The notes beneath the pieces were generated by a model. That model was given only the letters and a program-made list of their open reading frames with translations, ran no database searches and had not been told where the DNA came from. A DNA stretch of 64,000 nt from Achromobacter deleyi. Lineage in GTDB: Bacteria > Pseudomonadota > Gammaproteobacteria > Burkholderiales > Burkholderiaceae_B. The first letter of the stretch is position 1. Each line of letters begins with the position of its first letter. Shown here one piece after another: positions 22,505-35,005 of this stretch. The stretch covers positions 1 to 64,000 of the forward strand of contig NZ_CADIJO010000015.1 of assembly GCF_902859705.1 (NCBI RefSeq). Reading direction: 5' to 3'. The position numbers and the translations under genes are program-made.

Positions 22505-24304
22505 TCACCCTTCGCCCTTCCCCGCCACCGCAGGCGCACGCCGGAAGAACGCCGCCCGTTCGCTTTCTTCGCGCAGCCGCCGGGCACGGCTGCGGAACAG
22601 GTCCTTGCGGCCCACGATGCCCAGCACCCGTCCGCTGGCGCGATCCAGGATGGGCACGCGGCCCGCGCCCGACAGCGCCATGCGGTCGGCGATCTGGCTG
22701 GCCAGTTCTTCCGGATAGCCGTAGACCAACTCGCGGCCTTGCAGCGCCTGCGCCAAGGTCTGCGCCTGCGAGGCCGGGTCCAGCGCCCAGGCCAGGCTGT
22801 CGGCGCGCGTCACTTCGCCCACCGCCGCGCCGTCGGCATCCACCACCGGATAGCTGGTGTGCACGGGCTGCGTGTGTGTGAAATGCGCGATGGCCTGCGC
22901 CACCGTGAGCGTGTCGGGCAGCGTTTGCGCCGGGCTTGTCATGACCTGGCTTGCGCGCAGCAGATCGAACGGATCGACCCGATATTCGCGGTTGATGTGA
23001 TGGCCGCGGCGCGCGATCTTTTCGGTCAGGATCGACCGGCGCAGCAGCAGCACCGTCACGCCGTAGGCAAACACGCAGGCCGCCAGCACCGGCAGCAAGG
23101 CGCCCAGGTTGCCAGTCAGTTCCACCGCGAATAGCGTGGCCGTGAGCGGCGCGCGCATCGTGCCGCCCATCATCGCGGCCATGCCCACCAGCGCCCAGAA
23201 GCCCGGATCGGCCTGCGGCAGCAGCGGCGCGGCCAGGGCACCCAGCGCGCCGCCAAAGATCAGCAGCGGCGCCAGTACCCCGCCGGACGTACCCGAGCCC
23301 AGCGCGATCGCCCAGATCGCCACCTTGACCGCCAACAGCAGCAGCACCGCCTGCATGGCCAGGTCGCCCGCCAGCAGGTGGCGGATGTTGTCGTAGCCCA
23401 CGCCCAGCGCGGCCGGGTCGATCAGCCCGCCGATGCCGATGGCCAGGCCGCCCAGGGCCGGCCACCACATCCAGTGGATGGGCAACTTTTCGAACAGGTC
23501 TTCGGCGGCATACACCAGCGACGTCAGCACGCCCGACCCCAGGCCGGCCAGCACCCCCACGGCGGCGCAGGCCACCAGGTGCCATGGCGTGAATGGCAAG
23601 GCGCCGGTGTAGGCGAAGATGGGGCCGCCATCCAGCACGAAGGCGCGCGCCACCGCCGCCACCAAGGCGGCCGTGGCCACCGGCAGGAAGCTGCGCGGCT
23701 TCCATTCGAACAGCAGCAGTTCCACCGCCAGCAGCACGGCCGCCAGCGGCGTGGCGAAGATGGCCGTCATGCCCGCCGCCGCGCCCGCCACCAGCAGCGT
23801 CTTGCGCTCGCCGTCATTCAGGTGGATGGTCTGCGCCAGCAGCGAGCCGATGGCGCCGCCCGTCATGATGATGGGCCCTTCGGCGCCGAACGGGCCGCCG
23901 GTGCCGATGGATATTGCCGACGACACGGGCTTGAGCACGGCAACCTTGGGCGCGATGCGGCTCTTGCCGATCAGGATGGCTTCCATGGCTTCGGGGATGC
24001 CGTGGCCGCGAATCTTTTCGGACCCGTAGCGCGCCATCAGGCCGATGATGAGGCAGCCGATGACGGGGATGGCGACCGACGCCAAGCCCAGGCGCCCGGT
24101 CGTGATGGGCAGGTCGGCAAACGAGAACAGGCCGTGATAGGCCAGGTTGGTACAAAACGCGATCAGGCGCAGCAGCGCCCAGGCGGCGGCCACGCTGGCC
24201 AGGCCCACCGGCACGGCCAGCGCCATCAGCAGCACGACGCGCCGGTCGGTGGTGAAGTCGCCCAGCCGCAAGGCGGCGCGGGCGGAAGTGGAAACGGGAG
24301 GCAT
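22505..24304 (-). CDS. ClC-family chloride channel/antiporter with C-terminal CBS pair
   Basis: 599 aa. Membrane part about residues 25-430 with the ClC filter motifs: RGHGIPEAMEA (His101 where EcClC has Ser107 of GSGIP), GPFGAEGP with gating Glu142, and the GTSGGVLAP segment. A CBS pair fills about residues 445-580. The Glu suggests Cl-/H+ exchange or gated transport; the His in the first filter motif departs from classic chloride filters. Divergent from a marR gene, whose promoter region holds a candidate operator, so MarR control is likely. Confidence 0.9.
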   Translation of the reverse strand: MPPVSTSARAALRLGDFTTDRRVVLLMALAVPVGLASVAAAWALLRLIAFCTNLAYHGLFSFADLPITTGRLGLASVAIPVIGCLIIGLMARYGSEKIRGHGIPEAMEAILIGKSRIAPKVAVLKPVSSAISIGTGGPFGAEGPIIMTGGAIGSLLAQTIHLNDGERKTLLVAGAAAGMTAIFATPLAAVLLAVELLLFEWKPRSFLPVATAALVAAVARAFVLDGGPIFAYTGALPFTPWHLVACAAVGVLAGLGSGVLTSLVYAAEDLFEKLPIHWMWWPALGGLAIGIGGLIDPAALGVGYDNIRHLLAGDLAMQAVLLLLAVKVAIWAIALGSGTSGGVLAPLLIFGGALGALAAPLLPQADPGFWALVGMAAMMGGTMRAPLTATLFAVELTGNLGALLPVLAACVFAYGVTVLLLRRSILTEKIARRGHHINREYRVDPFDLLRASQVMTSPAQTLPDTLTVAQAIAHFTHTQPVHTSYPVVDADGAAVGEVTRADSLAWALDPASQAQTLAQALQGRELVYGYPEELASQIADRMALSGAGRVPILDRASGRVLGIVGRKDLFRSRARRLREESERAAFFRRAPAVAGKGEG

Positions 24305-24381
24305 GGTTCTTGGGACAGGAGACGGGGCGCAAGGCCCGGAAACCGGCGCAGGTGTTTTCTGCGCGGCGTTTGCGAAAGATC

Positions 24382-24408
24382 AAATATATCGTATCACGAC
24401 ATATATTA
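24382..24408. promoter_or_regulatory. Candidate MarR operator between ClC and marR
   Basis: An AT-rich imperfect palindrome lies in the divergent gap just before the marR start. It contains AAATATATCG (24382-24391) and on the other arm ACATATATTA (24399-24408). The same decamer AAATATATCG recurs on the minus strand before the HPP-CBS gene (24930-24939). This is the usual place for autoregulation by a MarR protein. Confidence 0.55.
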
Positions 24409-24418
24409 GAATCGGCCG

Positions 24419-24871
24419 GTGAAACGATCCCCGCCCCCCGCCCTGCCGTCCGCGTCCGACTACGAATTGCTGGCCGAATTCCGTTACGCGCTGCGCAAGT
24501 TCGCCGCCTTCAGCGAAAACGCCGCCGCCGGCCTGGACCTGATGCCGCAACAACACCAGGCGTTGCTCGCCATCAAGGGCAGCCGCGCCGGCGCCCCGGC
24601 CCGCCGCGGCCTGTACGTGGGCGAAATTGCCGAGCGCCTGCTGATCCGGCCGCACACGGCGGCCGAACTGGTCAACCGCCTGGAACGGCTGGACCTGGTG
24701 CGCCGCGAGCCCGACCCCGAAGACGGCCGCCGCGTGGAAGTGGTGCTGACGGCCAAGGCCGAACGCATCCTGGAAAGCCTGTCGGCCTCGCACCTGGAAG
24801 AACTGCGCGCCATGCGGCCGCTGCTGACCCGTTTGTTGACCCGCATCGACGACGACGCACCCGCGCGCTGA
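24419..24871 (+). CDS. MarR-family transcriptional regulator
   Basis: 150 aa from GTG 24419. The winged-helix core shows VGEIAERLLIRPHTAAELVNR, the recognition-helix region, then RREPDPEDGRRVEVVLTAKAE, the wing with the conserved DxR. It lies between the divergent ClC gene and the co-directional HPP-CBS gene and has matching AT-rich motifs on both sides, so it probably represses itself and both transporters. The ligand is unknown; anions or phenolic acids are only guesses. Confidence 0.88.
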   Translation: MKRSPPPALPSASDYELLAEFRYALRKFAAFSENAAAGLDLMPQQHQALLAIKGSRAGAPARRGLYVGEIAERLLIRPHTAAELVNRLERLDLVRREPDPEDGRRVEVVLTAKAERILESLSASHLEELRAMRPLLTRLLTRIDDDAPAR

Positions 24872-24915
24872 TTTCCTGACCATTACCTGACTCGGCCCAA
24901 CCCCCGCCGCGTGAT

Positions 24916-24939
24916 AAATTATCGTCCCCCGATATATTT
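24916..24939. promoter_or_regulatory. Second candidate MarR operator, before HPP-CBS gene
   Basis: Inverted repeat AAATTATCG (24916-24924) / CGATATATTT (24930-24939) around TCCCC. Its right arm is the reverse complement of the AAATATATCG decamer at the ClC/marR operator. It lies 21 nt before the TTG start of the HPP gene. Confidence 0.55.
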
Positions 24940-24960
24940 CACGGGGGCAAGGAGAGGGTT

Positions 24961-26127
24961 TTGGCTGTGGGTATCAAGCGCTGGCTTGGCGCGTTCGCAC
25001 CAGCGCCGGTCGGCGTCAACGGGCGCGAAAAGCTCTATGGCGCCGTGGGCGCGCTGGTGGGGCTGTTCTGCACCGAATGGGTCGGCCGCCATGCGTTGGG
25101 CGTGGCCAGCCCCTGGTTCATCGCGCCGATGGGCGCGTCCGCCGTGCTGCTGTTCGCCGCGCCTGCCAGCCCGCTGGCCCAGCCCTGGTCCATTCTGGCG
25201 GGCAATCTGGTGTCGGCGCTGATCGGCGTATTCTGCGCCCAGTTCATCGGCGACCCCGGCCTTGCCGCCGCCACGGCCGTGGCGCTGGCCATCGGCGCCA
25301 TGTTCTGGCTGCGCTGCCTGCATCCGCCCAGCGGCGCGGTGGCCCTGACCGCCGTGCTGGGCGGTCCGCCCGTGGCCGCGTTGGGCTATGGCTTCGTGCT
25401 GTGGCCGGTGGGGCTCAATACCGTCATCCTGCTGTGCATCGCCGTGGTCTTCAACGGCCTGCTCAAACGCAATTACCCGCGCCGCCACGCCGAGCCGGCC
25501 GCCGGCCACCGCACCCGCGACCCCGTTCCCAGCGCGCGGCTGGGCTTTTCGCGCGCCGACCTGGACCAGGCGCTGGCCCAGCGCGGCGAGTTGCTGGACA
25601 TCAGCAAGGAAGACCTTGAAGACATCGTGCTGGCCGCCGAACTGCGCGCCAGCACCCGCCGCTTTGGCGACGTGCGTTGCGCCGACATCATGTCGCGCGA
25701 CGTGGTCACCGTGCAGCGGCAAGACCCGCTGGATTACGCCGTGCGCCTGTTCGACAAGCATCGGCTGCAGTGGCTGCCGGTGCTGGATTCGTCCGGCCAC
25801 TACGCCGGCATGCTGGCTCAGGGCGACGTGCTGGCCCGCAAGAGCCGGCCGGCGCCCGTTGCAGCGGCTGGCGGCGCGCCGGCCGACCTGCTGGTGGCCG
25901 ACTGCATGCGGTCCGAAGTGCCGTTCGCCACGCCGGGCCTGCCCGCCATCGAACTCGCGCGGCCGATGTCGGACCATCTGCATTGCGTGCCGGTGCTGGG
26001 CGAAGACCGCACGCTGGTCGGCCTGGTGACCCAGTCCGATCTGGTGGCCGCGCTGTACCAGATGACGGTGTCGGCCGCGGCGCAGACCGCACCGGACCAG
26101 GACATCGGCTCACGGCTGGCGGCCTGA
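24961..26127 (+). CDS. HPP-family membrane protein with CBS pair
   Basis: 388 aa from TTG 24961, chosen because AAGGAG ends 6 nt before it; GTG 24967 is the alternative. Residues about 20-170 are the HPP domain (four membrane spans; the family HPP motif is seen in CLHPPSGAVALTAVLGG). Residues about 235-375 hold two CBS motifs (MSRDVVTVQRQDPL and MRSEVPFATPGLPAIEL). HPP proteins are poorly known; a plant member was linked to nitrite transport. Pairing with a ClC gene that also has CBS domains suggests a shared anion or nucleotide-sensing theme. Confidence 0.85.
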   Translation: MAVGIKRWLGAFAPAPVGVNGREKLYGAVGALVGLFCTEWVGRHALGVASPWFIAPMGASAVLLFAAPASPLAQPWSILAGNLVSALIGVFCAQFIGDPGLAAATAVALAIGAMFWLRCLHPPSGAVALTAVLGGPPVAALGYGFVLWPVGLNTVILLCIAVVFNGLLKRNYPRRHAEPAAGHRTRDPVPSARLGFSRADLDQALAQRGELLDISKEDLEDIVLAAELRASTRRFGDVRCADIMSRDVVTVQRQDPLDYAVRLFDKHRLQWLPVLDSSGHYAGMLAQGDVLARKSRPAPVAAAGGAPADLLVADCMRSEVPFATPGLPAIELARPMSDHLHCVPVLGEDRTLVGLVTQSDLVAALYQMTVSAAAQTAPDQDIGSRLAA

Positions 26128-26183: not shown

Positions 26184-26218
26184 GCCCTCCGTAGCCCTAC
26201 GGATTCCGGTCCGGAATC
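26184..26218. promoter_or_regulatory. Double palindrome before the histidine kinase gene
   Basis: TCCGTAG-CC-CTACGGA (26188-26203) is a 7-base inverted repeat within a 20-mer starting at 26184. The 20-mer recurs with one change at 28409-28428 before the GlcG-like gene. A second perfect palindrome, GATTCCGG-T-CCGGAATC (26202-26218), overlaps its end. Both lie 23-57 bases before the GTG start at 26241. The first is a likely site for the FixJ-type regulator encoded downstream. Confidence 0.65.
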
Positions 26219-26240
26219 TCCGCAGGGCATAATTCCAGGC

Positions 26241-27749
26241 GTGAATCCCCCCTTGCGCCATCGCGCCCTCTTCTACTGGCTGGTGCTGTTCCTGCTTGGC
26301 GCCCTTTGGCTCGGCCGCCAGGATTACGTCGGCCAATACGACCGCTTTTTCCAGGACACCAGCATCGCCCAGCGCATGCTCAGCCAGAAAACCGGGCAGC
26401 ACGAAGCCGTGCTGGCCACGCTGTCCGCCCTGTCGCATCCGCCGGCCCCCGAACGCCTGTTTCCCAGCCTGCAGCCGGCCATGCCGCAATTGCAGGGGCT
26501 GGGTTACCTGCCTGACGGCGCCTGGGCCGGCAGCACCGACGAACCGCCCGGCCTGCGCGCCGCCGTCGAGCAGGCCCGCACGCTGGGCCGCCCGGTCGTG
26601 CTGCCGCTGGACACGGCCCGTTATTGGTTGGTGGCGCCGTCCAGCTGGAGCCTGCTGGTCGATGCGCGCCACCTGGTCGCCCCGGCCGACCTGCCCGCGG
26701 GCCTGGCCAACCTGACCCTGGCGATCGGCCAGGCGCCGCTCACGCTGCTGGCGCGCCAGCCGGACCCCGCCGGCCCGGGCTGGCCGCTGGCACTCGCCAA
26801 GTCGCTCGGCGCGGCCAGCCAGCCCTTCATGCTGCACAGCGCGCGCACGCTCACGCCCGCATCGTGGCCCTGGCTGCCGTGGCTGCTGTGGGGCCTGACC
26901 AGCGCGCTGCTGGTGGCCGGCGTGACCGCCATGCGCCGTTCGCGCGCCGAAGCGCGGCGCCAGCAGGAACAGGCTCGCCTGGCCGCGATGGCGCGCCTGA
27001 GCACGCTGGGCGAAATGGCCGCCGGCATCGCCCACGAACTGAACCAGCCCCTGACCGCCATCCTGGCGCAGACCCGCGCCGCGCAACGCCTGCTGGACGA
27101 CGAAGACGAACGCCCGTCGGTACGCCGCGCCCTGCTTGCCAGCGCTGAGCAGGCCAAGCGCGCCGCCGACATCATCAGCCGCATGCGCGCGCTGGTGCAG
27201 CCCACCGCGCCCAGCCGGCGCGAAGCGCTGGACCCGGACGCGCTGGCGGCCTCGTTGCGCTTTCTGCGCGAACCCGAACTGGCCCGCCACGGCATCCGCC
27301 TGACCTGGCGCAACGCCAGCCCGGGCGCGCGTCCTTTGGGCGACCGCGTGGCGCTGGAACAGATCCTGCACAACCTGGTGCAGAACGCGGCCGATGCCCT
27401 GGTGCACACCGCGTCCGACGGCACCGACACCGCCATGGCAACCGCCCATCCCGCCAGCCGCGGGCCCCGCCCGACCGCCGACGCCGCGCCCGAAATCACG
27501 CTGGAAGGCCGCCTTGAAGGCGACGCCTATGTCTTCACGGTCAGCGACAACGGCCCGGGCATTGCCCCCGACGCGCTGGCCCGCCTGTTCACGCCGTTCT
27601 ACACCACCCGCGCCCAGGGCATGGGCCTGGGCCTGGCGCTGTGCGAAACGCTGGCCGGCGCCATGGACGGCCGCCTGGCCGCGCACAACCTGCAGCCGTC
27701 GGGCGCCTGCTTCACCCTGACCCTGCCATTGGCCAAGGGCCCGACATGA
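26241..27749 (+). CDS. Sensor histidine kinase (HisKA, FixL/DctB-like)
   Basis: 502 aa from GTG 26241. Two membrane spans (about residues 10-27 and 208-230) enclose a periplasmic sensor region of about 180 residues with no motif I recognise. The HisKA box is GEMAAGIAHELNQPLTAIL with phospho-acceptor His265; the ATPase domain shows the N box QNAADAL, NGPGIAPD and GLGLAL. The kinase subfamily with H-E-L-N-Q-P is typical of FixL/DctB. It overlaps the response regulator gene (ATGA at 27746), so both are coupled. Upstream in-frame text lies beyond the palindromes and is not convincing. Confidence 0.88.
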   Translation: MNPPLRHRALFYWLVLFLLGALWLGRQDYVGQYDRFFQDTSIAQRMLSQKTGQHEAVLATLSALSHPPAPERLFPSLQPAMPQLQGLGYLPDGAWAGSTDEPPGLRAAVEQARTLGRPVVLPLDTARYWLVAPSSWSLLVDARHLVAPADLPAGLANLTLAIGQAPLTLLARQPDPAGPGWPLALAKSLGAASQPFMLHSARTLTPASWPWLPWLLWGLTSALLVAGVTAMRRSRAEARRQQEQARLAAMARLSTLGEMAAGIAHELNQPLTAILAQTRAAQRLLDDEDERPSVRRALLASAEQAKRAADIISRMRALVQPTAPSRREALDPDALAASLRFLREPELARHGIRLTWRNASPGARPLGDRVALEQILHNLVQNAADALVHTASDGTDTAMATAHPASRGPRPTADAAPEITLEGRLEGDAYVFTVSDNGPGIAPDALARLFTPFYTTRAQGMGLGLALCETLAGAMDGRLAAHNLQPSGACFTLTLPLAKGPT

Positions 27750-28360
27750 ACGCCCCCGATCATTCCCCGCTGGTCTACCTGGTCGATGATGACGACGCGG
27801 TGCGCGACGCGCTGGCGCTGCTGCTGCGCAGCGTAGGCCTGCGCAGCGAAGGCCACGCCGATCCGCAGGCGTTCCTGGCCGGCCTGTCGCCGCACACCAT
27901 CGGCTGCGTGGTGCTGGACATCCGCATGCCCGGCATCAGCGGGCTGGACGTGCTGGCGCGCCTGGCCGACACATCCGACCTGCCCGTGGTGATGCTGACC
28001 GGCCACGCCAACGTCGACCTGTGCCGCCGCGCGTTCAAGGGCGGCGCCATGGAATTCCTGCAAAAACCGGTAGACGACGACGTCTTTCTGGATGCCGTGC
28101 AGGCCGCCGTGCGCACCCACATCGCCAGCCGTGAACGCCTGGCCGTCACCCAGGCCGCGGCCGACCGGCTGGCGCGGCTGTCCGCGCGCGAACGCGAGGT
28201 GCTCGAACGCGTGGTGCAAGGCCTGAGCAACAAGGAAATCGCGCGCGAGTTCGACCTGTCGCCGCGCACCGTCGAAACCTACCGCGCCAATGTCTTCGCC
28301 AAGCTCGAAGCCGACTCGCTGGCGCAACTGATCCGCCAGTACGCCACGCTGCTCGACTAG
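27746..28360 (+). CDS. FixJ-type response regulator (receiver plus LuxR HTH)
   Basis: 204 aa. Receiver domain with acidic pocket VDDDDAV, phospho-acceptor Asp58 in VVLDIRMPG, Thr in VVMLTGHAN and Lys in LQKPVDDD. The LuxR-type HTH lies at about residues 140-200 (LSAREREVLERVVQGLSNKE, then IAREFDLSPRTVETYRANV). Start set by the ATGA overlap with the kinase. LuxR/FixJ proteins bind short palindromes as dimers; the 16-bp palindrome found before the kinase and before the GlcG-like gene is the natural candidate. Confidence 0.92.
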   Translation: MNAPDHSPLVYLVDDDDAVRDALALLLRSVGLRSEGHADPQAFLAGLSPHTIGCVVLDIRMPGISGLDVLARLADTSDLPVVMLTGHANVDLCRRAFKGGAMEFLQKPVDDDVFLDAVQAAVRTHIASRERLAVTQAAADRLARLSAREREVLERVVQGLSNKEIAREFDLSPRTVETYRANVFAKLEADSLAQLIRQYATLLD

Positions 28361-28408
28361 CCGCGTCGCGGCACAGACTACGCCGCTTGCCCGGCCGTCA
28401 TCAGCCCT

Positions 28409-28428
28409 GCCCTCCGTAGCGCTACGGA
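28409..28428. promoter_or_regulatory. Palindrome before the GlcG-like gene, repeat of 26184-26203
   Basis: TCCGTAGCGCTACGGA (28413-28428) is a perfect 16-bp palindrome. With the four bases before it, the 20-mer differs from 26184-26203 at one central base only. It lies 89 nt before the ATG at 28518, a normal distance for an activator site. Confidence 0.65.
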
Positions 28429-28517
28429 GACGCCAGCGTATTCGGGCGTATACCGCCGATTCGCCCTTTTGGCCACACTGACTGCTCCTGACTTTCACTC
28501 GATAAAAGGACGCAGAC

Positions 28518-29006
28518 ATGACCCGCCACACGCTCGCCGCACTGGTTTCCACGCTGGCTTTCACGGGCGCCGCCCACGCCGCCGTGCTCAGCGAAAGCAA
28601 CATCTCGACCGCCGACGCGCAGAAGCTGGCCACCGCCGCTGTGGCGGCATGCCAGGCCAAGGGCTACAACGTCAGCGCCTCGGTGGTCGACCGCGCCGGC
28701 CTGCTCAAGGCCTTCGTGCGCGGCGACAACGCCGGCCCGCACACCATTGAAGCCAGCCGCGCCAAGGCCTTCACGTCCGCGTCGGCCAAGGCGCCCACGC
28801 TGGCCATGATGGAAAACGCCCAGAAGAACCCCGGCGCCGCCAACCTGACCGACATCCCCGGCTTCCTGCTGCTGGGCGGCGGCGTGCCCATCAAGGCCGG
28901 CGCCAACGTCATCGGCGCCATCGGCGTGGCCGGCGCCCCGGGCGGCAACCTGGACGCCCAGTGCGCCGACGCCGTGCTGGAAGAGAACGCCGCGCTGTTC
29001 AAGTAA
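28518..29006 (+). CDS. Secreted GlcG/HbpS-family heme-binding-like protein (DUF336)
   Basis: 162 aa: signal peptide MTRHTLAALVSTLAFTGAAHA, then one GlcG/HbpS domain (ATAAVAACQAKGYNVSASVV, SRAKAFTSASAKAPT, the glycine-rich IPGFLLLGGGVPI and VIGAIGVAGAPGG). Family members bind heme or cobalamin; HbpS of Streptomyces is secreted and modulates the SenS-SenR two-component system. Here it sits next to a two-component system and shares its palindrome, and precedes an iron-uptake locus. An accessory sensor or heme-scavenging role is inferred. Confidence 0.85.
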   Translation: MTRHTLAALVSTLAFTGAAHAAVLSESNISTADAQKLATAAVAACQAKGYNVSASVVDRAGLLKAFVRGDNAGPHTIEASRAKAFTSASAKAPTLAMMENAQKNPGAANLTDIPGFLLLGGGVPIKAGANVIGAIGVAGAPGGNLDAQCADAVLEENAALFK

Positions 29007-29094: not shown

Positions 29095-29610
29095 GTGCCG
29101 CCCGGCGATCTATCGGCTCCGCATGCCGTCGACACGCTCTACCGCTCCCATCACGCCTGGCTGACTTCATGGCTGCGGCGCCGCCTGCGCGACGACCACG
29201 ACGCCGCCGACCTGGCCCAGGACACCTTCGTGCGCCTGATGGCGGCCCGCGACACGCCGGGCCTGCGCGAGCCCCGCGCCTTCCTGACCCGCATCGCCCA
29301 CGGCCTGGTGGTCAATCTATGGCGGCGCCGCGAGCTGGAACAGGCCTATCTGCAAGCGCTGGCCCAGCGCCCCGAAGCCACCACCCCATCACCTGAACGG
29401 CGCGCCCTGGTGCTTGAAGCCCTGCTCCAGATCGACGCCATGCTGCATCGCCTGCCGGCGCGCGCCCGCGAGGCCTTCCTGCTGTCGCAACTGGGCGGCC
29501 ACACCTATGCCGATATCGCCCTGCGCCTGGAGGTGTCCGAGCGCATGGTCAAGAAATACATGTCGCAGGTGATGCTGCAATGCCTGCTGATCGCGGACGG
29601 CGTCTGGTGA
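29095..29610 (+). CDS. ECF sigma factor, FecI type
   Basis: 171 aa from GTG 29095, with GGAG 5 nt upstream. Region 2 shows LRDDHDAADLAQDTFVRLM; region 4 shows LLSQLGGHTYADIALRLEVS followed by ERMVKKYMSQVMLQ, typical of FecI. It is the first gene of a FecI-FecR-receptor cassette and should direct transcription of the TonB receptor when the siderophore binds outside. The GTGA overlap couples it to fecR. Confidence 0.92.
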   Translation: MPPGDLSAPHAVDTLYRSHHAWLTSWLRRRLRDDHDAADLAQDTFVRLMAARDTPGLREPRAFLTRIAHGLVVNLWRRRELEQAYLQALAQRPEATTPSPERRALVLEALLQIDAMLHRLPARAREAFLLSQLGGHTYADIALRLEVSERMVKKYMSQVMLQCLLIADGVW

Positions 29611-30569
29611 GGGCCACGCCGCTGTCTGCCGCCCCCGACCGCCGTGTGCTGCAAGCCGCGGCCGACTGGTTCGCGCGCCTGGGCGACGAACGCGCCAGCG
29701 CCGACGACACCCGCCAGTGGCAGGCCTGGCTGGCCGCCACGCCCGAACACCGCCGCGCCTGGGATGCCGTCACGGCCATCAGCGCCCGTTTCGAAGCGGT
29801 GGCAGGCCAACCCGCGCTGGACGCCCTGACCCACGCCGGACAAGGCCGCCGCCGCGCCCTGCGCACGCTGATGCTGCTGGCCGGCGCAGGCGGCCTGGGC
29901 GCCGCCGCCTGGACCCAGCCTGCCACCCGGCGCCAATGGGCCGACCTGCGCACCGACGTCGGCCAGACGCGCCAGGCCACCCTGGAAGACGGTTCGCGGC
30001 TGTGGCTGAATACCGCCAGCGCCGTCAACCTGCGCTTTGACGACACGGCGCGGCGCGTGGTGCTGGTGGACGGCGAAACGCTGATCGACACGCATCCGGA
30101 TGCCCGCACGCCCGCGCGCCCTTTCCTCGTGGACGTGGGCTATGCCCAATTGCAGGCGCTGGGCACACGCTTCGCGGTGCTGCGCGATGGCGGCCGCGCC
30201 TGGCTGGACGTGTATGCCGGCGCCGTGCAGATCCAGCCCGCCGACGCCGCCAGCCGCATCGTGCCCGCCGGCACCCGCACCGCATTTTCCGGCCGCGCCA
30301 TTGATGCCCCCCAGCCGCTGGACTCGGCGCGCGACGCCTGGACCCGTGGCGAATTGGTCGCCGACGGCATGCCGCTGGGCCGCTTTGCCGCCGAATTGGC
30401 GCGCTACCGCCGCGGCTTCGTCACCTGTACGCCCGACATCGCGCAGTTGCCGCTGGTGGGCGTGTTCCCCCTGGCCGACACCGATCGCATCCTGCGCGCC
30501 CTGGAATCCACCCTGCCGGTGCGCGCGCACCGCGTCCTGCCGGGATGGATACGGCTGGAGGCGGCGTAG
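29607..30569 (+). CDS. FecR-family anti-sigma/sensor protein
   Basis: 320 aa from GTG 29607, overlapping the sigma gene stop by GTGA. The N-terminal cytoplasmic domain has the family pattern AAADWFARLGDERASADDTR and WQAWLAATPEHRRAWD; a single membrane span lies near residues 85-103. The periplasmic FecR domain contains TLEDGSRLWLNTASAVNLRF. It transmits the receptor's ligand state through the inner membrane to the ECF sigma factor. Confidence 0.92.
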   Translation: MRATPLSAAPDRRVLQAAADWFARLGDERASADDTRQWQAWLAATPEHRRAWDAVTAISARFEAVAGQPALDALTHAGQGRRRALRTLMLLAGAGGLGAAAWTQPATRRQWADLRTDVGQTRQATLEDGSRLWLNTASAVNLRFDDTARRVVLVDGETLIDTHPDARTPARPFLVDVGYAQLQALGTRFAVLRDGGRAWLDVYAGAVQIQPADAASRIVPAGTRTAFSGRAIDAPQPLDSARDAWTRGELVADGMPLGRFAAELARYRRGFVTCTPDIAQLPLVGVFPLADTDRILRALESTLPVRAHRVLPGWIRLEAA

Positions 30570-30741
30570 CACCGGGGCTTGCATCGCGGGGCGAATCCTC
30601 GATGGACCCGGCGGCCCCTGAAGCGCAACCCGCCGCGGCTCTTTTTTGTAACAGCCGCCTTATCGCGGTTCCCCTTTTGCCATCTCGCTTGGCATGCCAG
30701 ATGTACGCCGCGTTTTGCGCGTCCTGTCGCCAAGGAAACCC

Positions 30742-33147
30742 ATGCACGTCCCCACCCTTCGCTCTCCGCTCCTGGTCCGCGCCCTGGCCGCCGCGTTGGC
30801 CGCCCCGGCTTTCGCCCTGGCTACCACGCCGGTCCAGGCCCAGGTCTCTGCCGGCTTCCAGGTGCCCGCCGGCCCCTTGTCGCAGGCGCTCAGCCAATTC
30901 GCCAGCCAGGCGGGCGTGACACTGTCGCTGGATGGCCGCCTGGTGGCCGGCAAGCAGAGCGCGGGCCTGTCCGGCCCCTACAGCATCGACCAGGGCTTCG
31001 GCCGCCTGCTGGATGGCACCGGCCTGCGCGCCGAGCGGCGCTCGGACAACGTCTACACCGTGCGGCCGCTGTCGTCGGCGGATGACACGGCGCAACTGGA
31101 CGCGGTGACCGTGGTCGGCGCCTCGGTCATCAACCCCAGCTACCAGCCGGAACCGGTCGCGGGCGTCAGCCGCTCGCCCCTGGCGGTGCTGGACCAGCCA
31201 CAGGCCGTGAACGTGGTGCCTGCCCAGGTGCTGCGCGACCAGCGCCCGCGCAACCTGGACGACGCGCTGGCCAACGTCAGCGGCATCACCCAGGGCAACA
31301 CGCTGGCCGGCACGCAGGACACGCTGATGAAGCGCGGTTTCGGCGCCAACCGCGACGGCTCGATCATGCACAACGGCATGCCGCTGGTGCAGGGCCGCGG
31401 CCTGAACGCGGCCGCCGATTCGGTCGAAGTGCTCAAAGGCCCGGCCTCGCTGCTGTACGGCATCATGGACCCGGGCGGCGTCATCAACATCGTCAGCAAG
31501 CGGCCGCTGCTGACACCGTACAACGCCATCACCGTCACCGGTTCCAGCTACGCCCACAGCCGCACCGGCGCGGGCGCCACGCTGGATTCCACCGGCCCCA
31601 TCGGCGACTCGCGCCTGGCCTACCGCCTGGTGGTGGACACGATGAACGAAGACTACTGGCGCGACTTCGGCCGGCGCCGCGACACGCTGGTGGCGCCGTC
31701 GCTGGCCTGGTATGGCGAAGACACGCAGATCGTGGCCTCGTACGAACACCGCGACTACCGATACCCGTTCGATCGCGGCACCGCGCTGGACCCCACCACC
31801 GGCAAGCCGCTGGACATTCCTTCGCGCCGCCGCCTGGACGAGCCCTACAACAATATGTGGGGCAGCACCGAACTGGCGCAGGTCACCATCGACCAGCGCG
31901 TCACCGAGAACTGGAAGGCCCACCTGGGCTACAGCTGGAACCAGGAACGCTACGACGCCAACCAGGTCCGCGTGACCAGCATCGATCCGGCCACGGGCAC
32001 GCTCAAGCGCAGCAACGACGGCACCCGCGGGGCGCTGTCCACCGACCACTACGTGATCGGCTATCTCGACGGCCGGGTCGACCTGGGCGGGCTGCGCAAC
32101 GACGTGCAGATCGGCGCCGACTACGAACGCCGCAAGATCTTCCGTTCGGACCTGATCCGCCAGAACCTGTCCAAGCCGTTCAGCTACGTCAACCCCGTGT
32201 ACGACCTGCAGGACCCCGGCAACACCGTGGTCGCCAGCGACAGCGACCAGACCGACAAGCTGCGCGCCACCTCGTTCTTCCTGCAAGACTCGCTGCACCT
32301 GACCGATCGCTGGATTCTGGTGGGCGGCCTGCGTTACCAGCACTACGAACAACTGGCCGGCCGCGGCCGCCCGTTCAACACCAACACCGACATCCAGGGC
32401 GGCAAGTGGCTGCCGCGCGCCGGCCTGGTCTACAAGTGGACGCCCGAAGTCTCGCTGTACGGCAGCTACACCGAATCGCTCAAGCCTACCTCCACGATCG
32501 CCCCGCTCACCAGCGGCACTGTGATCGATTCGGGCGTGGCACCCGAACAGTCCAAGTCGTGGGAACTGGGCCTGAAATGGGACATGCCGGGGCAGACGAC
32601 CGGCACACTGGCGCTGTTCGACATCCGCAAGCGCAATGTGCTGGTGTCGCAATACAACGACGTCACCAAGCTGACCGACTGGCGCACCAGCGGCGCGGCG
32701 CGTTCGCGCGGCGTGGAACTGGACGTCAGCGGTTCGCTGTCGGCCCGCTGGGACTTCATGGCCAGCTATGCCTACCTGGATGCCCGCACCACCGACGACC
32801 CGCTGTACCAGGGCAACCGCCTGTGGAACGTGGCCCAGCACACCGGGTCGCTGGCGCTGGTCTACAACGCCGGCCAGATCGGCGAAGGCCGCCTGCGCCT
32901 GGGCGCCGCCGCGCGCTACGTGGGCACGCGGCCGGGCGATTCGGCCAATTCGTTCGAGCTGCCGGCCTACACGGTGATGAACGCGTTCGCCACCTACGAC
33001 ACGCGCGTAGCCGGGCGCAATGTGCAGTTCCAGCTGAACGTGAACAATCTGTTCGACCGCACCTACTACACGTCCAGCGCCAACCAGTACTTCATTTCCA
33101 TGGGCGATGCGCGTCAGTTCGTGCTGTCGACCCGGGTGGAGTTCTAA
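30742..33147 (+). CDS. TonB-dependent siderophore receptor with N-terminal signalling (STN) domain
   Basis: 801 aa from ATG 30742 (AAGGAAA 5-11 nt upstream). Signal peptide ends near VQA (about residue 33). The STN signalling domain (about 35-110: FQVPAGPLSQALSQFASQAG...) marks a transducer that talks to FecR. The plug follows with the PLAVLDQPQAVNVVP TonB-box region and SVEVLKGPASLLYGI; the barrel ends with the aromatic residue in STRVEF. Resembles FpvA/FhuE-type hydroxamate or mixed siderophore receptors; the exact ligand is unknown. It is transcribed after fecIR. Confidence 0.93.
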   Translation: MHVPTLRSPLLVRALAAALAAPAFALATTPVQAQVSAGFQVPAGPLSQALSQFASQAGVTLSLDGRLVAGKQSAGLSGPYSIDQGFGRLLDGTGLRAERRSDNVYTVRPLSSADDTAQLDAVTVVGASVINPSYQPEPVAGVSRSPLAVLDQPQAVNVVPAQVLRDQRPRNLDDALANVSGITQGNTLAGTQDTLMKRGFGANRDGSIMHNGMPLVQGRGLNAAADSVEVLKGPASLLYGIMDPGGVINIVSKRPLLTPYNAITVTGSSYAHSRTGAGATLDSTGPIGDSRLAYRLVVDTMNEDYWRDFGRRRDTLVAPSLAWYGEDTQIVASYEHRDYRYPFDRGTALDPTTGKPLDIPSRRRLDEPYNNMWGSTELAQVTIDQRVTENWKAHLGYSWNQERYDANQVRVTSIDPATGTLKRSNDGTRGALSTDHYVIGYLDGRVDLGGLRNDVQIGADYERRKIFRSDLIRQNLSKPFSYVNPVYDLQDPGNTVVASDSDQTDKLRATSFFLQDSLHLTDRWILVGGLRYQHYEQLAGRGRPFNTNTDIQGGKWLPRAGLVYKWTPEVSLYGSYTESLKPTSTIAPLTSGTVIDSGVAPEQSKSWELGLKWDMPGQTTGTLALFDIRKRNVLVSQYNDVTKLTDWRTSGAARSRGVELDVSGSLSARWDFMASYAYLDARTTDDPLYQGNRLWNVAQHTGSLALVYNAGQIGEGRLRLGAAARYVGTRPGDSANSFELPAYTVMNAFATYDTRVAGRNVQFQLNVNNLFDRTYYTSSANQYFISMGDARQFVLSTRVEF

Positions 33148-33149
33148 GC

Positions 33150-34328
33150 ATGGCGCCGCAACGATATACCGGCGTTTCGCGGGCCTCGCGACTCGTGGGA
33201 CTCGGGCGACGGGCGGCGTCCGGCCTGATGGCCGCGACCTTGGCCGCTCTGGCCGCGACGGCGCACGCCGACGCCGATCCCATCGTCGCCGAGCGCAGCG
33301 CCACGGTGCTGCCCGGCAGCGGCCACAGCTGGGGGTTTGCCGCGCTGGCGCAAGACGGCCGGCACGTGCTGCTGGCCCGCCGCGAAAACGGCCTGACGAT
33401 CTGGGACGCGGCCCGCCGCGAAGCGCTGCCGGACATCCCCGGCACCGAAGGCGCCAATGCCGCGGTCGCCGTCCCGGCTGCCGACCGGCTGTACGTGGCG
33501 GCCATGGATGGCAGCGTCATCGTGATACGCGCGTCCGACCGGCAGGTGCTGAAACGCGTGCCGGTGGACAGCGGCAATCTGAACAATGCGCTGTTCGATC
33601 CCGCCAGCGGCCAGGTGCTGTTGACCAGCGGCCGCCGCGGGGCCGTGTCACGGGTGTATCGGCTGGACCCGGCCTGCGACTGCGTGCGCGCCAGCCTGGA
33701 CCTGCCGGCCGCCAAGCTGGATGCGCCGGTGTTGCTGGGGCCGGGGCGGATCGCGCTGCCGATGCGGGATGAAGGCCGCATCGCCGTCATTGACCTGCGC
33801 CGCATGGCCTTGCTTCAGGTCTGGCAACCGCCGCAATGCGCGCGCCCCAGCGCCCTGGCGGCCGACGCCGCCGGCAAGCGCCTGTTCGTGGCCTGCCGCG
33901 GCGCGACGCCGCGCCTCTTGAGCCTGGATGCGCAAAGCGGTGCCGTGCTGGCCAGCGCGCCGGCCGGCCGCGACATCAATGCGCTGGCCTACGACGACCG
34001 CCGCGGCTGGCTGCTGGCGCCCAGCGGCGCCGACGCGCGGCTGTCGATCTACGACGTCAGCGCGCCGGCCGGACTGCGCCGGGTGGCGTCGATCGGCACC
34101 CGCCCCTGGGCCCACAACATGGCCTATGACGCCGACCGCGGCATCGCGTACCTGCCCAGTATGGACGACACCGAGGTGTATCCGGCGGGCGGCGGCGAGG
34201 CGCAGCGGCACTTCGCGGCGGACAGCTTCACGCTGACGACGTTGCGGCTGCAAGCGCCGCAACGTCATGGCGTGGAGCGGCAAGCGGATCAACGGCAAAG
34301 GGATCAAGGGCAAGAGGTGCGCCCGTGA
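33150..34328 (+). CDS. Secreted YncE/WD40-like beta-propeller protein in iron locus
   Basis: 392 aa from ATG 33150, two bases after the receptor stop. Signal peptide ends near AHA (about residue 40). The body is a series of propeller-like repeats (ARRENGLTIWDAARRE, AADRLYVAAMDGSVIVI, GKRLFVACRGATPRL, YDADRGIAYLPS). A Cys pair is seen in DPACDC. The tail after about residue 365 is Gln/Arg-rich and low in complexity. Such propellers occur in some siderophore and metal loci, but the role is not known to me; a periplasmic binding or scaffold role is an inference. Confidence 0.75.
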   Translation: MAPQRYTGVSRASRLVGLGRRAASGLMAATLAALAATAHADADPIVAERSATVLPGSGHSWGFAALAQDGRHVLLARRENGLTIWDAARREALPDIPGTEGANAAVAVPAADRLYVAAMDGSVIVIRASDRQVLKRVPVDSGNLNNALFDPASGQVLLTSGRRGAVSRVYRLDPACDCVRASLDLPAAKLDAPVLLGPGRIALPMRDEGRIAVIDLRRMALLQVWQPPQCARPSALAADAAGKRLFVACRGATPRLLSLDAQSGAVLASAPAGRDINALAYDDRRGWLLAPSGADARLSIYDVSAPAGLRRVASIGTRPWAHNMAYDADRGIAYLPSMDDTEVYPAGGGEAQRHFAADSFTLTTLRLQAPQRHGVERQADQRQRDQGQEVRP

Positions 34329-35005
34329 GCCGGCCGATGACGGCCGCGCCAACGCCTGCGGGGGCTGCCCGGCCGCGGCCGCCGAACCGGCGCGGGGTGT
34401 ACCTGAAGGCGTTGCGCAAGGCGCATGGCTGGCTGGGGCTGTGGGGGGCGTTGCTGGGGCTGCTGTTCGGGGCCAGCGGGATTCTGCAGAACCACCGGGC
34501 AGTGCTGAAGATCGATATGCCGGGGCCGGTGGTGGAGACGCTGCAGTTGCAGGCGCCGCCGGATCTGCCGCGAACGGATGCGGCGGTGGGGCGATGGCTG
34601 CAAGAGGCGTTGCAGTTGAACAAGCCGGTGGAACGGATCCGCAAGGAGCCGGCACACGAGGTGCATTGGGGGGATGTGACGGCGCGCCAGCCGGAGAAGT
34701 GGCAGGCGTTGTTTCGGGCGCCGGGGTATCAGGTGCAGGTGGAGTTCTGGCCTTCAAGCGGGGGGGCTAGTGCTCGGCGGAGTGTGGCCGGGTGGTGGGG
34801 GGTTGTGCAGAATTTTCATCGGGCTAATGGGGTGGGGGTTGGGTGGGTGTTGTTGTCGGATTCTGTGGGGGGGGCGTTGATTGTGTTGTGTTTGACGGGG
34901 GTGTTGCTTTGGACGGAATTGGAGCGGCGGAAGGTTGTGGGGATGTTGGTGGCTTTGGGGGGTGTTTTGGCGTTTTTTGTTGCTGTGGTGGGGTCTTGGG
35001 GTTGA
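34325..35005 (+). CDS. PepSY-associated membrane protein
   Basis: 226 aa from GTG 34325 (GTGA overlap with the propeller gene). Starts YLKALRKAHGWLGLWGALLG, the first membrane span of PepSY-TM proteins, then a periplasmic PepSY-like part (residues about 60-140), the QNFHRANGVGVGWVLLSDSVGG span and a final span. PepSY-TM proteins are common in siderophore loci, where some act in ferric-siderophore reduction. The last 230 bases are strikingly G/T-rich and almost free of C on the coding strand, unlike its neighbours. The G-run at 34829-34847 fits a quadruplex pattern. Confidence 0.82.
   Translation: MSRPMTAAPTPAGAARPRPPNRRGVYLKALRKAHGWLGLWGALLGLLFGASGILQNHRAVLKIDMPGPVVETLQLQAPPDLPRTDAAVGRWLQEALQLNKPVERIRKEPAHEVHWGDVTARQPEKWQALFRAPGYQVQVEFWPSSGGASARRSVAGWWGVVQNFHRANGVGVGWVLLSDSVGGALIVLCLTGVLLWTELERRKVVGMLVALGGVLAFFVAVVGSWG

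Follow-up and report, generated by a model that had tools for sequence, protein, structure and literature searches.

Secreted proteins of the HbpS family encoded beside a sensor kinase and a helix-turn-helix (HTH) regulator have been described in Streptomyces, where hbpS, senS and senR lie in this order and in one orientation and the reported SenRc consensus is CGGGCCGCGTCCCG (PMC4991794); according to the same paper, only some actinobacterial members of the hbpS-like genes cluster with senS and senR. A layout similar to the one reported here, likened by description, is that of MSMEG_0243/0244/0246 in Mycobacterium smegmatis, where an exported heme-binding protein beside a two-component system was proposed as an accessory sensor (PMC7516205). 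In the FixL–FixJ system of rhizobia, Sinorhizobium meliloti FixJ binds a 16-bp site (TAAGTAATTTCCCTTA) with a GTA core, systematic evolution of ligands by exponential enrichment (SELEX) with FixJ yielded GTAGTTTCCC and GTAMGTAG, and at fixK two regions are protected by FixJ, a distal one from −69 to −44 and a proximal one from −57 to −31 (PMC4999443). Here we analyzed positions 1 to 64,000 of Achromobacter deleyi contig NZ_CADIJO010000015.1 (hereafter the window), in which a sensor histidine kinase, a response regulator and an exported HbpS-like protein are encoded in succession and share a 16-bp palindrome. We consider it probable that these genes form a dedicated FixJ-type circuit with one or two target promoters and the exported HbpS-like protein as its output, present in eight families of Burkholderiales. 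The elements of this module in the window are as follows.

26188–26203, no strand: palindrome TCCGTAGCCCTACGGA before the kinase gene, predicted regulator site with its centre near −44.5
26228–26233, forward strand: predicted −10 box CATAAT, 7 nt before the GTG start of the kinase gene
26241–27749, forward strand: sensor histidine kinase with a GTG start, a dCache-like extracytoplasmic domain, HisKA and HATPase_c
27746–28360, forward strand: FixJ-type response regulator with receiver and GerE domains, its start overlapping the kinase stop (ATGA)
28413–28428, no strand: palindrome TCCGTAGCGCTACGGA, site 1 before the HbpS-like gene, predicted centre near −65.5
28435–28450, no strand: candidate site 2, degenerate (AGCGTATTCGGGCGTA), at an offset of 22 bp downstream from site 1 and with a predicted centre near −43.5
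28474–28479, forward strand: −10 box CACACT of the HbpS-like gene, predicted from conservation
28518–29006, forward strand: exported HbpS-like PF03928 protein, signal peptide recognized by eye, with invariant Cys45, His75 and Cys149

Pfam matches agreed with the gene identities given in a first-pass annotation of the window, with HisKA and HATPase_c in the kinase, Response_reg and GerE in the regulator and PF03928 in the third gene, the export of whose product is judged from a signal peptide seen by eye. The HbpS-like protein belongs to PF03928, scoring 114.7 bits over residues 30 to 154 (gathering cut-off 25). FixJ is the nearest match (PDB 5xso, E = 2.8e-50) of the regulator, which combines the receiver, GerE domain and FixJ-like recognition helix of a FixJ-type regulator; its score against the NCBIfam FixJ equivalog NF006900 was 218.7 bits, below the curated cut-off of 255. 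The kinase falls outside the FixL type (124.8 bits, as compared to an NCBIfam FixL cut-off of 850), and the Pfam scan found no PAS domain in it, HisKA and HATPase_c being the only matches. The locus is reminiscent of FixL–FixJ in its regulator helix, its 16-bp site with a GTA core and its distal and proximal target regions (PMC4999443), but differs in a kinase that lacks a Pfam PAS domain and has a dCache-like periplasmic fold, and in a target that is an exported HbpS-like protein rather than fixK. In comparison with HbpS–SenS–SenR, the gene order is kinase, regulator, HbpS-like gene (in the window and 25 further loci), and the operator is TCCGTAN4TACGGA, with a regulator of the FixJ type. These differences in order, operator and regulator uphold the earlier suggestion that the module is an independent pairing, distinct from SenS–SenR. 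The internal iron motif of HbpS, E78XXE81 (PMC3754957), is likewise not kept, the window protein having E and R, and some relatives N, Q or D for the first E; the name heme-binding is for this reason not carried over.

The 20-mers at 26184–26203 and 28409–28428 differ by one base and both contain TCCGTAG-NN-CTACGGA, as first annotated, and the two exact copies of this palindrome at the module locus proved to be the only ones in the whole genome (6,809,508 bases, 71 contigs), as compared to none for the reversed-pattern control and a chance expectation of ∼0.03 (arithmetic, uniform bases). Among 43 genomes of the genus, the exact pattern was present in 39 (reversed control, 0/43) and TCCGTANNNNTACGGA in 42, with two copies in 41 (reversed control, 2/43); the exceptions were G027 with one copy (genome 78% complete) and G033 with none (57% complete). 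With two copies at 41 of the genus loci and one at the remaining one, no copy of TCCGTANNNNTACGGA in these genomes lies outside the 42 loci. The shorter core CCGTAGNNCTACGG occurred at one extra place away from the locus, in G038, while its reversed control matched 29 of the 43 genomes. These whole-genome counts took the place of a three-mismatch scan of the window, which returned at least two matches in 33 of 100 shuffles and was therefore uninformative. The regulon in the genus would thus consist of two promoters, a count that covers strong sites only.

The tie between palindrome and module extends beyond the genus. The exact 16-mer was present in 57 of 268 genomes of the family, in 48 of which (in g1, g7 and g8) it lay at the kinase–regulator–HbpS locus; in g7 and g8, the pattern occurred in the same seven and two genomes that had a kinase match at E ≤ 1e-30. 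The remaining nine had no kinase match at this threshold and at first resembled counter-examples, but upon re-examination eight of them contained a more distant kinase–regulator–HbpS module; in these, the regulator gene carries the palindrome at its 3′ end, ahead of the HbpS-like gene. At order level, a search of 399 genomes for kinase relatives with alignment A1 gave 57 with a match at E ≤ 1e-60, and 20 loci outside the genus with a full-length kinase, defined as a match spanning nearly the whole model, were taken; the regulator and then the HbpS-like gene followed the kinase in the same order in 19 of these 20. Families with the module, including that of the window, number eight (f1, f3, f5, f9, f13, f27, f46 and f49), all in Burkholderiales. 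In a named collection, an HbpS-like gene was found at six of the best 80 kinase loci, exactly the six with near full-length kinases (Bordetella ansorpii, Leeia oryzae, a Hydrogenophaga metagenome-assembled genome, two Variovorax and Xenophilus aerolatus). The other 74, mostly matches to the kinase core plus three somewhat longer ones (L139, L141 and L199), showed no HbpS-like match within up to 6 kb on each side. In a class-level sample (274 genomes), three matches were obtained, all with the same gene order, one of them the genome of the window itself. The median distance from regulator to HbpS-like gene was 120 bp over all loci; in G007, G039 and G025, where ∼2.6 to 7.5 kb separate the two genes, the palindrome stays by the HbpS-like gene. 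The gap is ∼7.5 kb in two of these (L078 in G007 and L097 in G039).

Promoters of the HbpS-like gene were compared in a set of 84, anchored on the palindrome (82 distinct; effective number ∼42). A GTA-N4-TAC core, its centre variable, preceded the gene in 84/84 loci, so that the half-cores of the palindrome are conserved in orthologous promoters. The best 12-position site score was at least 10 in 82/84 loci as compared to 1/840 shuffled promoters, the consensus for this score having been derived from the same loci that were scored. When the set was searched for a second copy of the site, an offset of 22 ranked first among 164 non-zero offsets (z = 5.8), and GTA was found at the corresponding place of site 2 in 73/84 loci. 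A predicted −10 box with the consensus TAcACT lay at +61 to +66, A62 and T66 being present in 78/84 loci, and no TTGACA-like −35 element was conserved in the promoter logo of the 84 loci.

The situation before the kinase gene is different. Exact TCCGTANNNNTACGGA was found there in 59 of 86 loci, which form a single clade on the kinase tree (44 rows; SH-aLRT 97, quick method). Thus, of the expectation that the palindrome always precedes both genes, the part concerning the HbpS-like gene holds for the half-cores in all 84 loci and the part concerning the kinase in one clade. In all 59 loci with a kinase site, a NATAAT box was present 31.5 to 33.5 bp from the site centre, measured to the first −10 base (31.5 in 15, 32.5 in 42 and 33.5 in two), similar to the spacing of site 2 (31.5 bp). 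Such a distance upstream of the −10 box is the expected place for an activator beside a weak −35 region, and the kinase site is taken to occupy a position of this kind. A NANAAT box 4 to 9 nt before the kinase start was found in 57/59 loci with the site and in 15/27 without it; any in-frame start codon was allowed, some chosen starts being far off (L118 and L251), and the chance rate of 31/4300 refers to single positions and is not strictly comparable. A leaderless or almost leaderless kinase mRNA is predicted from the box just before the start in 57 of the 59 loci. The first-pass annotation had proposed autoregulation together with control of the HbpS-like gene from the shared palindrome; as judged from the distribution of sites, control of the HbpS-like gene would be general and autoregulation through the kinase site confined to one branch.

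The neighboring regulator probably reads these sites as a dimer on TCCGTA-N4-TACGGA, as suggested by the conservation of the site and its covariation with the recognition helix. The helix is near-identical to that of FixJ (SPRTIEVYRANV). An SPRTV helix was found in 82/84 loci, all with C at site position 3, and the matching G at position 14 was present in 80 of these, L118 and L119 being the loci without it. The remaining two loci, L120 and L250, have an SVRTVD helix and a site of the form TCGGTA...TACCGA, in which both arms are changed; they fall together on the tree at a junction of long branches and may represent one event. The ACTU motif of CrbR was considered as a known counterpart of the site and discarded, since its listed sequences are different and the CTACGGA matched in the text belonged to primers.

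Together, these observations most likely reflect a circuit in which the membrane kinase would sense a small molecule through its periplasmic double-Cache-like domain and phosphorylate the FixJ-type regulator, a dimer of which would bind the 16-bp palindrome. At the HbpS-like gene, a strong upstream site would be followed by a weaker one 22 bp on, two helical turns away and beside the −35 region, and regulator bound in tandem would activate a weak promoter. In one clade, including this genome, a single site at a similar distance from the −10 box may additionally render the kinase–regulator operon self-activating. The output, an HbpS-like protein with a conserved cysteine pair, is expected to be a periplasmic redox or ligand-binding protein. 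A literature search yielded, among the matches listed, no paper recognized as describing the module, subscription papers having been mostly outside its reach. The second site at +22 with a fixed distance to the −10 box, the covariation of helix and site, the dCache-like sensor and an ankyrin-repeat neighbor in 15 loci appear to be new. Roles are known for few of the widespread HbpS/GlcG/DUF336 proteins; a conserved two-component system with one HbpS-like protein as its apparent sole non-self target would provide a genetic handle on function. The module also adds, in proteobacteria, another pairing of hbpS-like and sensor genes to the actinobacterial one, and its small regulon, with two strong sites in the genus, is open to complete testing.

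Several observations weigh against a circuit of this form. The locus L259 (G153) has a lone exact palindrome and no kinase, regulator or HbpS-like match in the 3 kb read, and L121 (G117) has a kinase core and regulator with no HbpS-like gene in the stretch read, its 11-of-12 site lying ∼1.5 kb upstream of the kinase match. In L118 and L119, the site is without full dyad symmetry, and 27/86 loci have no good site before the kinase. The 84 promoter loci are not independent, as reflected in their effective number, and include two duplicate pairs, each of a named and an unnamed locus on contigs of identical length (L122/L110 and L123/L237). At site 2, TAC is found in only 8/84 loci and the mean log-odds against the site-1 matrix is −6.8 bits, negative though still much better than at other offsets; site 2 would be a weak site, if it is a site at all. 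The −10 boxes of both genes are predictions from conservation, and another FixJ/NarL-type regulator could share the site.

The predicted structures bear on both ends of the circuit. The model of the kinase sensor region (pLDDT 90.9) adopts a double-Cache-like fold, with matches to KinD (4jgp; Z = 13.2, 177 aligned residues, rmsd 3.0) and DctB (3e4p; Z = 10.9, 160 aligned residues, rmsd 3.1), other dCache domains accounting for most of the next matches; with Foldseek, the match to KinD 4jgo had E = 4.8e-05. Pfam gave no match in the sensor region of the window kinase, and no Cache profile matched any of 45 members, so the double-Cache assignment is one of fold: the sensor shares its predicted fold with KinD, DctB and other double-Cache kinases at 9 to 12% identity. 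Elsewhere in the window kinase, an insert of ∼23 residues follows the N box (27417–27494) and is absent from the other ten aligned rows; the kinases of the close relatives L062 and L063 are equal to it in length.

The AlphaFold model of the HbpS-like protein (pLDDT 89.3) has HbpS as its nearest solved structure (3fpw; Z = 21.4, 133 aligned residues, rmsd 2.7). Cys45, His75, Lys83, Asp146 and Cys149 were invariant in 44/44 aligned members. The protein shares fold and Pfam family with GlcG, PduO-C, EfgA and NahX (the DUF336 family) and keeps Lys83 of HbpS, but it differs in being exported and in having a Cys45–Cys149 pair. Among the relatives compared for these cysteines (HbpS, an HbpS mutant, 4nkp, OrfY and NahX), Cys45 is without counterpart and Cys149 is matched in OrfY and NahX. 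In the model, the two cysteines lie in helices 31–47 and 143–156, the counterparts of a pair running antiparallel in the fold of the family (PMC4923194), and a Cys45–Cys149 disulfide may form between them. A preprint on DUF3365, retrieved by a prefix match in the search, is unrelated to DUF336.

It is possible, although doubtful, that the HbpS-like protein is both target and co-sensor, binding and modulating the kinase in a three-component arrangement like that of HbpS–SenS–SenR. HbpS of Streptomyces reticuli interacts with SenS (PMC4923194 and PMC4991794) and is the nearest solved structure to the protein described here, and the kinase sensor domain co-occurs with the HbpS-like gene in 19 of the 20 order-level loci and in all six near full-length cases among the best 80 named ones. 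This co-occurrence would equally be explained by a target and its regulator traveling together, and the kinase has a dCache-like domain of its own. In G339 (L236:5419–6480), moreover, the promoter of the module precedes a gene for an OMP_b-brl outer-membrane barrel, while kinase and regulator persist and a search of the genome, run without a positive control there, found no HbpS-like gene. In this promoter, site 1 reads ACCGTAGTGCTACGGT, and the site 2 GTA and the position of the −10 box are retained; CCGTANNNNTACGG occurs once in the G339 genome, at that promoter (reversed control, eight times), and a 10-of-12 site lies just upstream of the kinase gene. The swap, a single case and a natural comparison of target genes, favors the HbpS-like protein as an output over an obligate co-sensor. 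An extended version, rather unlikely as a whole, would place a Gram-negative three-component system across Burkholderiales, in which an HbpS-like protein with redox cysteines is the sole output and also tunes the dCache kinase in response to a periplasmic redox or small-molecule signal, with the ankyrin-repeat protein adding a further output in one branch.

Activation by the regulator is preferred here to repression, in which bound sites near the promoter would block RNA polymerase until the phosphorylation state changes. Site 2 and the kinase site do adjoin the −35 region, as a repressor site might. The missing TTGACA-like −35 element, however, is what is expected of activator-dependent promoters and fits activation, and the distal and proximal sites resemble the two regions protected by FixJ at fixK (PMC4999443), which makes repression improbable.

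It is very improbable that the neighboring regulator is not the reader of the palindrome, which would instead be recognized by an unrelated regulator or act as an RNA hairpin. The lone exact copy in G153 would fit such a role, but each genus genome typically has two sites whose presence is tied to the module, and the site covaries with the recognition helix of the regulator. A hairpin can be dismissed in particular, since both palindromes lie 5′ of the predicted −10 boxes and are therefore not contained in RNA from those promoters.

Downstream of the module, the window contains one further feature of note.

29095–35005: iron-uptake-like cassette comprising an extracytoplasmic function (ECF) sigma factor, FecR, a TonB-dependent siderophore receptor, a weak beta-propeller match and a short membrane protein

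Participation of the module in iron acquisition together with this ECF sigma factor, FecR and TonB receptor is very improbable: the cassette adjoins the module in the window, as first annotated, but was found at only 6/42 genus loci (two of them at ∼3 kb), has only scattered weak matches outside the genus (TonB, 27% in L103 and L104; FecR, 23% in L112), and is not preceded by the palindrome in either the window scan or the whole-genome exact count, so the adjacency stands and the functional link is not supported. For the genus count, ∼7 kb downstream was read, and at two of the 42 loci the contig is too short on that side to decide.

A different neighbor recurs among the loci. In 15 of them (including L240 and L125), the HbpS-like gene is directly followed by a gene for an exported ankyrin-repeat protein (Ank_2). 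Of 86 loci, 59 have the kinase site only, 15 the ankyrin gene only, 12 neither and none both; the place of the gene is cut off by the contig end in L111 and partly so in L246. This anticorrelation was rejected as an independent signal, as the loci with the kinase site form one clade and thus represent a single event. In Pseudomonas aeruginosa, AnkB supports the activity of the catalase KatB and peroxide resistance (as cited in PMC2830190), and HbpS–SenS–SenR has been tied to oxidative stress (PMC4991794), which together suggest a periplasmic redox theme for the module. The genome of the window also encodes a relative of the ankyrin protein (L255:4174–4848; G000:C2), unlinked to the module and near an apparent AraC-type regulator.

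Among the remaining neighbors, an example from the largest cluster resembles, by eye, a binding protein of a tripartite transporter. Upstream of the module, a CLC-type channel with CBS domains, a MarR regulator and an HPP-CBS membrane protein (22505–26127) are present in most genus loci, but outside the genus the three were not observed together.

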